Assembly: GCF_001629705.1 (NCBI RefSeq)
Contig: NZ_CP015378.1
Span: forward strand, 1,302,001 to 1,366,000
DNA length: 64,000 bases
Direction: 5' to 3'
Origin: Fictibacillus phosphorivorans
Lineage (GTDB): Bacteria; Bacillota; Bacilli; Bacillales; Fictibacillaceae
The translations under genes were made by a program, and so were the position numbers. Below the pieces are notes generated by a model. It had not been told where the DNA came from and made no database searches. It worked only from the letters and a program-made list of their open reading frames with translations. Shown here one piece after another: positions 29,214 through 49,921 of this stretch (the first letter of the stretch is position 1; each line of letters opens with the position of its first letter).

Positions 29214-29495
29214 ATGAATATAACATTAAGCGCTAAGAAGTATATAGAAGAAGTGCTTGAAATGAACAACGCCAATGGAATAAGAGTTTACTTCTCAGGT
29301 ATGGGCTGAGGCGGTCCTAAGCTTGGCCTGGCTCTGGATGAGCCTGAAAACACAGATATCATTGAAGAGATCAATGGCATACGAGTGGCGTTTGATCCAA
29401 GAATTAAGGAACAGACTTCTACATTAAAACTAGACTTTGAAGATTCTAAATATGGATCTGGTCTCGTGATGCTCGGACAAGAAGATTGCTGTTAA
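29214..29495 (+). CDS. HesB/IscA-like iron-sulfur cluster protein, predicted selenoprotein (in-frame TGA)
   Basis: 93 residues if TGA 29307-29309 is read as selenocysteine (Sec32). The frame is open on both sides and the family pattern crosses the TGA: FSGMG-U-GGPKLGLALDEP. The Sec takes the place of the first of three conserved cysteines that bind Fe-S or iron in A-type carriers; the other two are the terminal DCC. GAGGTG lies 6 nt before ATG 29214. A hairpin 21 nt after the TGA fits a bacterial SECIS. HesB-like selenoproteins are an established bacterial family. Read as ordinary code it would be two useless fragments. Confidence 0.85.
29307..29344 (+). promoter_or_regulatory. putative bacterial SECIS element (UGA plus hairpin) in HesB-like gene
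   Basis: After the TGA, GGCTC (29330-29334) pairs with GAGCC (29340-29344) around the loop TGGAT. The apical loop begins 25 nt after the TGA and has G at its second position, within the limits known for SelB-binding elements. Confidence 0.6.
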
Positions 29496-30240: not shown

Positions 30241-30372
30241 GTAAACATCCTTTATTTTAAATTTGATTTCTTGTATATGCTCTACCATTTACTATTATAA
30301 TAAAAGATAGGACAAAGAGGTTATAGATTGCCATATATAATTGTTTTAGAATTTTTCCGAAAGGGGATTAGC

Positions 30373-30888
30373 ATGAAAAAGATGCAAAAGAATCTCAGTA
30401 TTTGTATAGCAATCGTTCTTATGCTCGTAGGTGCTGGATGTGGAAACGATGCAAAAATAAAAGAAGCAAAGCTAGAGAACCAAAACGGTGAACCTGTAGT
30501 TGTTTTCCCATCAGAAAAACCATCACTCATTTTTTTATTTACAACAGCGGGCTGAGGACTCTGCCAAAAACAGCTGGTTCAGCTGAATGAAAATATCAAT
30601 GAATTTAAAGATATGGATGTAAACATTTATGCGGTAAGCTCAGATACGGTTGAACGTTTATCAGTACTTCATCAAGAGATGAAGCCTGTTTTTCCGTTTT
30701 TATCAGATCCGGAATTTAAGCTCATTGATCACCTAGATATGAAAGGGGACAGTGTAGCTAAACGTGGGTACGCCCTGATTGATAAGGAAGGAAAGGTTAT
30801 CGTGACTAAGGTGAACGACCATTGGGGAGAAGAGATCAACCAAACGTCTAAACAGATTCATGAAGAATATAAAAAGCTAGAAAAATAG
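30373..30888 (+). CDS. thioredoxin-fold (peroxiredoxin/TlpA-like) lipoprotein, predicted selenoprotein (in-frame TGA)
   Basis: 171 residues if TGA 30553-30555 is selenocysteine (Sec61). The same frame runs from ATG 30373 through the TGA to the stop at 30886. The active site reads TTAG-U-GLC-QKQL, a UxxC in place of the CxxC of AhpC/TSA-TlpA proteins, after the beta strand PSLIFLF. Downstream it continues with VNIYAVSSDTVE, FPFLSDPEF and YALIDKEGKVI, as expected for the fold. The signal peptide ends at VGAGC, suggesting a lipoprotein outside the membrane. AAAGGGGA lies before the start. A hairpin with a GTT loop 21 nt after the TGA fits a SECIS. Confidence 0.85.
30553..30585 (+). promoter_or_regulatory. 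putative bacterial SECIS element (UGA plus hairpin) in thioredoxin-like gene
   Basis: CAGCTG (30571-30576) pairs with CAGCTG (30580-30585) around loop GTT, or with loop GGTTC if the closing G-C opens. The loop starts about 21 nt after the TGA and begins with G. Confidence 0.6.
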
Positions 30889-30915
30889 TCCGGCAACTAA
30901 CGGACTATTTTTTTT
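30883..30915 (+). terminator. rho-independent terminator overlapping the selenoprotein stop
   Basis: AAATAGTCCG pairs with CGGACTATTT, followed by Ts. Confidence 0.8.
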
Positions 30916-31003: not shown

Positions 31004-31366
31004 ATGCTAAAAAAATCTTTATGGCTTGCAGCGATCGCAGTTCTTGCTATTGGAATATTGGCAGCTTGCGGTGGAAGTAAAGACAAAGAAAAAAGCACAA
31101 AGAATGCGGAAGAAACAATCACAATTGAAGCTAGTAATTTTAAATTTGATAAAAAAGAGTATGAAATTCCAGCAAATAAAGACGTAGCTCTTAAACTTGA
31201 AAATGTTGATGGAAATCACGCGGTCATGATTGAGGGAGAAGACGTGAACGTAACAGGTGGTTCTTCTGATGTTGTAAATTTAAAGCCTGGTGAATATACT
31301 CTTCGATGCAGTGTTCCTTGTGGAAACGGTCATGCGGATATGGTATCAAAACTTGTCGTAAAATAA
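31004..31366 (+). CDS. cupredoxin-fold lipoprotein with CuA-like copper site
   Basis: 120 residues. Signal peptide with lipobox LAAC, then a Lys/Glu linker and a cupredoxin domain (about 38-120). Copper ligands resemble the dinuclear CuA centre of cytochrome oxidase subunit II: His in GNHAVMIE and CSVPCGNGHADM, which has the C-x3-C-x3-H-x2-M spacing. It is an outer-surface copper protein for electron transfer or copper delivery. AGGAGGGA lies before ATG 31004. The thioredoxin-fold selenoprotein is the upstream neighbour, separated by a terminator. Confidence 0.88.
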   Translation: MLKKSLWLAAIAVLAIGILAACGGSKDKEKSTKNAEETITIEASNFKFDKKEYEIPANKDVALKLENVDGNHAVMIEGEDVNVTGGSSDVVNLKPGEYTLRCSVPCGNGHADMVSKLVVK

Positions 31367-49375: not shown

Positions 49376-49424
49376 GCTGCCTAAGTAGGGAGCCTCTTCA
49401 AATGATCCTATTTCTTTACATAGA

Positions 49425-49456
49425 AAAGACCCGGCAGCAACTGCCGGGTCTTTATA
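49425..49456. terminator. bidirectional terminator
   Basis: AAAGACCCGGCAG pairs with CTGCCGGGTCTTT around CAA. Shared by the 47-residue gene and the converging cold shock gene. Confidence 0.85.
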
Positions 49457-49468
49457 TATAGGCTGAAC

Positions 49469-49669
49469 TTATTTTTTAGTTACGTTAGCTGCTTGTGGTC
49501 CGCGAGCTCCGTCAACAATTTCAAATTCTACTTCTTGACCTTCGTCAAGTGATTTGAATCCTTCTGATTGGATTGCAGAGAAGTGTACGAATACGTCGTC
49601 TCCACCTTCAACTTCGATGAATCCGAAACCTTTTTCAGCGTTAAACCATTTTACTTTACCTGTTTGCAT
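49469..49669 (-). CDS. cold shock protein (CspB/CspD family)
   Basis: 66 residues, a single cold shock domain. RNP1 is KGFGFIEV and RNP2 is VFVHFSAI. It binds single-stranded RNA/DNA as an RNA chaperone. AGGAGG lies 8 nt before ATG 49669. The roughly 100-nt AT-rich region upstream, with a GTGCAC-containing hairpin near the ribosome site, is in line with the long structured leaders of csp genes. Confidence 0.96.
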
Positions 49670-49921
49670 GTGAATGCCTCCTAGAACGTGTGCACTTTTT
49701 GTGCTCTGTAATTACCAAACCACTTTCAAACTCTTAAGTTAAGATGTAATCCAGTACTGAATGGTTGTCACAAATATATCATAAGAAAAAAGCTCTCGCA
49801 AGGAACTTTTCTGAAAAATAGGAATAAAGAGTCAGGATATTTTCTCGAATATAATTTTCAACTGAATCTTATGGGTTGAAGTGAATGTTGTTCAAAATTT
49901 ATGGCAGATAAACATAACAAA

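Follow-up and report, generated by a model that had tools for sequence, protein, structure and literature searches.

How is an in-frame UGA codon read in a gene of Fictibacillus phosphorivorans? The gene lies in a stretch of 64,000 nucleotides (the window; positions 1,302,001-1,366,000 of a genome that is a single contig of 4,230,665 bases and whose nearest named relatives are Fictibacillus) and runs on the plus strand from ATG 30373 to TAG 30886-30888. With TGA read as selenocysteine (Sec), 30373..30888 is a single frame of 171 residues and the TAG, and TGA 30553-30555, which encodes U61, is its sole internal stop. A first-pass annotation, made from the letters alone, had traced this frame correctly and had proposed a selenoprotein, a proposal now supported by the conservation of the TGA, purifying selection, covariation in a hairpin and a link to SelB. 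As judged by sequence comparison, the product is very probably a secreted, lipid-anchored selenoprotein of the peroxiredoxin fold, with UGA 30553 decoded by SelB and Sec-tRNA(Sec) via a hairpin at 30571-30585.

Conservation of the UGA codon

Is the UGA peculiar to this genome? A species-genome collection was scanned with six peptide patterns, none of which spans the Sec position. The scan gave 30 named loci, and the aligned codon is TGA in all 30. Nine of these are titled Fictibacillus and 21 are titled Cytobacillus, Bacillus, Neobacillus, Niallia, Pseudoneobacillus, Sediminibacillus, Salinibacillus, Sporosarcina, Paenibacillus or (one) Pseudomonas. By this gene, three records fall within the Cytobacillus clade, either because they are mislabelled or by transfer: L025 (titled Pseudomonas sp. 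ISL-84), L030 (Sporosarcina globispora) and L033 (Paenibacillus sp. FSL R5-0490). The codon is TGA in 62 of 63 family rows, a set in which the window appears twice and the same Fictibacillus contigs recur under a second locus id. The remaining row, L069, has TGT, and the conserved in-frame UGA is therefore aligned with a cysteine codon in a homologue. The comparison with CxxC homologues that the first-pass annotation had suggested thus yielded one natural cysteine form, with the motif CDLC and with the hairpin lost.

A set of 120 whole genomes, in which the own genome is included and the nine Fictibacillus contigs of the named loci recur, holds 33 genomes with a match below 1e-20: 31 with one TGA, one with the cysteine codon (G020, the source of L069) and one with a decayed copy (G009). 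The one-TGA single frame is kept in 15 of the 18 genomes of the genus, own included, which makes the decay in G009 lineage-specific. The G009 copy (L108) has frame breaks and further stops, and G008 and G017 show only weak matches, to other peroxiredoxin (Prx)-like proteins. All three retain SelB and the TGA-bearing HesB frame described below, so that gene loss does not follow loss of the machinery there. Disabling mutations in close relatives, which the first-pass annotation had named as grounds for rejection, are confined to G009 among these 18.

The search was widened to 398 Bacilli genomes drawn evenly; a family member is present in eight at E <= 1e-15, of which five had been found before, and nine of nine matches have one TGA. 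Among 398 phylum-wide genomes five match at E <= 1e-10, and only G000 and G116, both already found, are family members. The other three (42-47 bits, without stops) were rejected, as was the one record from the plasmid collection, annotated ahpC and 28.7% identical. Within the genomes searched the family is rare and almost wholly of the Sec form; no cysteine form besides L069 was found in these collections, within the limits of search sensitivity. Weak matches with one TGA to other Prx-like proteins turned up in six genomes (G061, G103, G048, G002, G024 and G033) and are apparently further Sec families; of the stretches from three of these genomes (L113-L116), L116 alone gave a tblastn alignment to the query.

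The sequence after the TGA is under purifying selection. For codons 62-171, the ratio of nonsynonymous to synonymous change (dN/dS) against nine Fictibacillus homologues is 0.031-0.071 in six of the nine pairs, three of the six having a dS near 2 or more; the other three pairs are synonymously saturated and give no ratio. The whole frame, and not just the part before the TGA, is bracketed by two signals: a Shine-Dalgarno-like AAAGGGG (30360..30366, plus strand), six bases ahead of the start codon, and a terminator-like hairpin (30881..30912, T-rich on both sides and listed by the scan on the minus strand only), which overlaps the TAG.

The SECIS-type hairpin

Does the message carry a selenocysteine insertion sequence (SECIS)? 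The hairpin noticed at first pass was found as described: CAGCTG at 30571-30576, the loop GTT at 30577-30579 and CAGCTG at 30580-30585, on the plus strand. Its first base is the 16th after the last base of the TGA, with 15 nucleotides between, and the distance from UGA to loop is 21 nucleotides. Rules of geometry and energy for bacterial SECIS elements are given in the legend to Fig. 2 of PMC13188914. The geometry agrees with them (6 bp, loop GUU, 21 nucleotides). The folding energy is -12.5 kcal/mol for 46 nucleotides, -8.2 for 45 nucleotides from the UGA and -6.4 for the isolated stem-loop; the energy rule is satisfied with neighbouring sequence and not by the isolated stem-loop, and the legend names no folded stretch.

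Comparison of 45 distinct Sec sequences shows compensatory change in the stem. Pair 21-31 is GC in 22, AU in 20 and GU in three, and is never mispaired. None of 500 shuffles reaches the observed covariation score, the percentage paired or the number of doubly changed cells, and the percentage paired drops from 90% to 13-37% in slid controls. Thinning the set to 32 rows does not alter this picture; pair 24-28 is then CG in three rows and GC in 15. The codon for Leu71 is CTG or TTG in 45 of the 45 sequences, against 1886 of 5785 leucine codons in long open reading frames (ORFs) of the 30 named loci. The synonymous difference was taken in eight-codon windows as the mean of all pairwise comparisons among ten sequences. 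It falls to 0.10 at the hairpin (codons 65-72), against 0.27-0.41 in the surrounding windows (codons 53-76), 0.37 for codons 1-8 and 0.61-0.97 in the rest of the frame. This trough reflects a constraint on the RNA beyond that on the protein.

What happens to the hairpin when Sec is given up? In the cysteine homologue L069 it is missing, the best fold reaching only -2.2 kcal/mol. L069 is nested in the Sec tree with 15 rows of the genus Fictibacillus (support 97/91), and is flagged among the long branches. The simplest reading is one change from Sec to Cys, followed by decay of a SECIS no longer needed.

Selenocysteine machinery

The first-pass annotation had named a second ground for rejection, absence of Sec machinery in the genome; this is not the case, as tRNA-Sec, SelA, SelB and SelD are all encoded on the same chromosome. 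The tRNA-Sec gene scores 58 bits in Rfam against a cut-off of 47, and ARAGORN calls it tRNA-SeC with anticodon TCA. The selB gene directly adjoins it, selD and selA lie within 9 kb, and MnmH/SelU is located about 7 kb away on the other side. Curated NCBIfam cut-offs are passed by selA (545.2 bits), selD (375), selB (372.8) and MnmH (344.4). A CcdA/DsbD_TM-like gene that ends about 1.9 kb upstream of selB was set aside as evidence; no such motif was found in four SelB loci of other genera, but these loci reach only 1.5 kb beyond selB and are uninformative.

SelB exceeds its curated cut-off in 75 of the 120 genomes. An intact Sec member is found in 31 of these 75 and in none of the 45 SelB-negative genomes (Fisher p 2.3e-8), and without the own genus in 16 of 57 against 0 of 45 (p 3.1e-5), p-values that are optimistic owing to the relatedness of the genomes.

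The gene had been called the second selenoprotein of the region. Its HesB-like neighbour (29214..29495, plus strand; TGA 29307, motif GMGUGGP) does bear an in-frame TGA, scores below curated cut-offs, and has one-TGA homologues in many relatives and stop-free ones in others, but the count of two is too low, as the genome holds at least five candidate Sec frames. Besides the HesB-like frame and the UxxC lipoprotein there is SelD itself (C1 about 1804309, L009, minus strand), which reads GGUGCKIG through a TGA that lies in frame and ahead of the ORF found by plain listing; an 8-bp hairpin lies at a fitting SECIS spacing. A peroxiredoxin frame at C1 448313 (L129:1182-1646; AhpC-TSA 125.5 bits) has TGA at the peroxidatic position (TxxU, in PLDFTPGU) and a hairpin at a fitting SECIS spacing; its nearest NCBIfam model is PrxU, with 84.5 bits, below the cut-off of 270. 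The fifth is an AhpC-TSA_2 frame at C1 734237 (L130:1228-1884; 48.3 bits, cut-off 27; motif GUPYY), also with a hairpin at a fitting spacing; by residue counting its U stands at the place of U61, and Tyr replaces C64.

Could the UGA be read in another way?

A TGA that is a true stop, or a sequencing error, in a broken gene or between two short ORFs would be the simplest alternative. A TGA in a single genome could be a mutation, a relative (G009) does have a decayed copy, and the argument that two in-frame TGAs so close together make chance very unlikely proved weak by itself: in a crude scan, 14 of 2604 in-frame TGAs in the window likewise stand between at least 25 codons that follow an ATG and another open run of about 55 codons or more. 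Chance is nevertheless excluded, because the TGA recurs in all of the named homologues, dN/dS after it is 0.03-0.07 and the hairpin covaries. The identical TGA across many genera, the low dN/dS, the terminator-like hairpin that sits at the TAG and the link of the family to SelB together leave a stop highly improbable. Reading of the UGA by a near-cognate Trp or Cys tRNA, or through general leakiness, is compatible with the sequence alone and seems just as remote: TGA is a working stop here, ending 13 of the 47 ATG-started ORFs of 150 aa or more in the window, tRNA-Sec and SelB are present, the hairpin is RNA-constrained, the 45 SelB-negative genomes lack an intact member, and Cys is the only replacement found.

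Several points weigh against decoding by SelB at this hairpin, or against its proposed product, and deserve to be set out together. The evidence for Sec in the protein is comparative, not direct. The gene is dispensable, since three of the 18 genomes of the genus, all three with SelB and the TGA-bearing HesB frame, lack it or have a decayed copy. The isolated stem-loop has only -6.4 kcal/mol, and a single-sequence folding z-score of only -1.56 was too weak to be used as SECIS proof and was set aside. A hairpin this stable and at SECIS spacing follows 21 of 1408 TGAs on the plus strand of the window (own included) and 13 of 1200 on the minus strand; as 34 of 2608 TGAs do as well, the hairpin of a single sequence is weak evidence by itself. 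Of the five measures of covariation, two fail against shuffles (pairs with two-sided change, reached in 151 of 500; further pair types, in 339 of 500), the thinned set giving 65 and 199 of 500 for the same two. Pair 18-34 is unpaired in eight of the 45 sequences and 24-28 in 24, four of the seven stem pairs never vary, and QLVQL is conserved in the protein, so that coding itself holds some of the stem constant. One homologue, L041, has Phe in place of the lipobox Cys. Loss of the PxxxTxxC motif (T57 for Pro, U61 for Thr) speaks against an ordinary peroxiredoxin mechanism, and among the neighbourhood clusters listed no conserved neighbour was seen that could name a partner. Even so, decoding as Sec through SelB and the hairpin is strongly supported by the comparisons.

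Fold, active site and possible function

What kind of protein carries the Sec? The AhpC-TSA domain (PF00578) is matched with 68.1 bits against a cut-off of 26, and all 50 structure matches listed are peroxiredoxins; a TlpA match further down is possible. By Pfam and structure the protein is nearer to AhpC/PrxQ peroxiredoxins than to TlpA. The signal peptide (30373..30441, plus strand) ends at C23 in LVGAGC, which we take to be a lipobox, and this column is at least 90% Cys in alignments A1 and A3 (22 rows each).

The active-site motif is FTTAG-U-GLC. In thioredoxin-type CxxC, including that of the ResA-like protein of this genome, U61 corresponds to the first Cys; in peroxiredoxin TxxC it corresponds to the Thr. 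The placing of the TGA at the catalytic Cys of a peroxiredoxin/TlpA-like site thus holds for the thioredoxin/TlpA nucleophile; on the peroxiredoxin side the catalytic position is C64 (30562..30564, plus strand). In hhalign alignments to the own AhpC and the own TxxU peroxiredoxin, C64 falls on the peroxidatic Cys, and it is invariant in A1 and A3. UxxC stands where peroxiredoxins have TxxC or TxxU. PxxxTxxC/U, the motif of peroxiredoxins proper, is not found; the sequence here is TxxxUxxC, with T57 (invariant in A3) in the Pro column and U61 in the Thr column. R131 (30763..30765, plus strand) is invariant in both alignments and aligned with the Arg of the own AhpC (RGYALID / RGMFIIN); an Arg before the last core strand has a catalytic role in peroxiredoxins. 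The ResA-like protein has a Pro just before the corresponding position (IPTT). No conserved Pro was seen just before RGY in A1 or A3, although L069 and L112 have a Pro nearby.

A mechanism can be hypothesized from these features. SelB with Sec-tRNA(Sec) very probably decodes UGA 30553 as Sec, directed by the hairpin. Cleavage by signal peptidase II at C23, as the lipobox suggests, would leave the enzyme anchored to the cytoplasmic membrane on its outer side. U61 and C64 form a UxxC redox pair where the active-site helix begins. Most likely the U61 selenolate attacks the oxidant, a hydroperoxide or a disulfide, C64 would resolve the product to an Se-S bond, and an extracytoplasmic thioredoxin-like protein would re-reduce this bond. 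A hydroperoxide is modestly favoured as substrate because R131 is invariant and no conserved cis-Pro of the thioredoxin type was seen; the missing PxxxT is the main argument against it. A protein disulfide is the less probable substrate, though one to be taken seriously.

Would the enzyme then be a peroxidase at all? An extracytoplasmic thiol-disulfide oxidoreductase, doing ResA- or TlpA-like work, is a credible second choice. Its UxxC aligns with the CxxC of the ResA-like protein, and Table 1 of PMC13188914 names UxxC selenoproteins of the peroxiredoxin fold "Prx-like thiol:disulfide oxidoreductase". The retained peroxiredoxin Arg, the lack of a conserved Pro before RGY and the peroxiredoxins that fill the structure matches listed argue the other way. 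Within a peroxidase, the roles could also be exchanged, with C64 as the residue that attacks the peroxide and U61, which stands where the motif has Thr, as the resolving and activating one. The alignments do place C64 on the peroxidatic Cys and U61 on the Thr, and C64 is invariant. This exchange is unlikely, as the cysteine homologue has CDLC, where both positions stay redox residues, and as Sec is usually the attacking residue in selenoenzymes. Attack by U61 on a hydroperoxide remains the preferred scheme. A broader idea, put forward tentatively and itself rather doubtful, is that a clade with selenium at the otherwise conserved peroxiredoxin Thr, beside a Cys at the peroxidatic position, might form a membrane-anchored mixed Se/S peroxidase on the outer face.

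Relation to known selenoproteins

The kind is already known. "Prx-like UxxC" selenoproteins were described in 2005 (PMC1088965), Prx-like thiol:disulfide oxidoreductases were counted in a 2006 selenoprotein survey (PMC1794560), and they are listed as PF00578 with UxxC in a 2026 review (PMC13188914) and in PMC9312934. With the proteins of PMC1088965, PMC1794560 and PMC13188914 (Table 1) the present one shares the peroxiredoxin-type sequence, UxxC replacing TxxU/TxxC and decoding as Sec; its kinship with this class, whose reference protein is WP_010940744.1, is judged by PF00578 and the motif. It differs as a lipoprotein clade in Bacilli, found mostly in records titled Bacillaceae genera or Fictibacillus, and is a new lipoprotein clade of this class.

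Sec peroxiredoxins (TxxU) share the fold family and the Arg, and the own genome has such a copy (L129), but their Sec is at the peroxidatic position, three residues beyond U61. Compared with PrxQ/BCP, AhpE and AhpC, PxxxTxxC has become TxxxUxxC, a lipoprotein signal is added and there is no Cys after C64. ResA and TlpA share a probable membrane-side location and a CxxC at the UxxC position; no conserved cis-Pro motif was seen here before RGY in A1 or A3, and the C-terminal half is of peroxiredoxin type. None of the 17 NCBIfam models listed reaches its cut-off for the UxxC lipoprotein. NF040769 (SelL_rel_redox) and NF053656 (TUGYCR) show weak local similarity, with 27.7 and 17.9 bits, far below their curated cut-offs of 120 and 100. 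New, as far as the literature was searched, are the Bacilli lipoprotein clade, nearly all Sec, with its SECIS evidence, and selenium at two positions of one fold in one genome. In the open-licence PMC literature no paper on Fictibacillus selenoproteins was found and, by titles and abstract starts, none of the papers listed is on this gene.

Neighbouring features

Can the neighbourhood suggest a function? The ORFs of the window stretch were clustered with those of the 30 named loci, and of the 30 clusters listed, the ones richest in non-Fictibacillus loci, the gene's own was the only one to span Fictibacillus and other genera. As no neighbour is shared among these, gene context gives no function. 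A cupredoxin-like lipoprotein (window 31004-31366) lies directly downstream; among the clusters listed it has no tie to the selenoprotein outside the genus. Promoter-like sites found by the scan are not in excess over shuffles. Elsewhere in the window an Rfam cspA thermoregulator was found at 49422-49823 on the minus strand (90.3 bits).

Significance

If UGA is annotated as a stop, this gene would be split in two or lost, and none of the NCBIfam models listed would recover it at its cut-off. The finding adds a probable extracytoplasmic Sec enzyme to the Bacilli. The gene and L069 form a natural Sec/Cys pair, the SECIS hairpin being present in the first and absent from the second. The genome also has selenium at two different positions of the same fold, U61 and the TxxU copy at C1 448313; the benefit of Sec over Cys thereby becomes testable within one fold. 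If there is indeed a clade of mixed Se/S peroxidases, nearly all Sec and with one Cys escape, it may help to explain why the Sec trait is retained in Bacillaceae.
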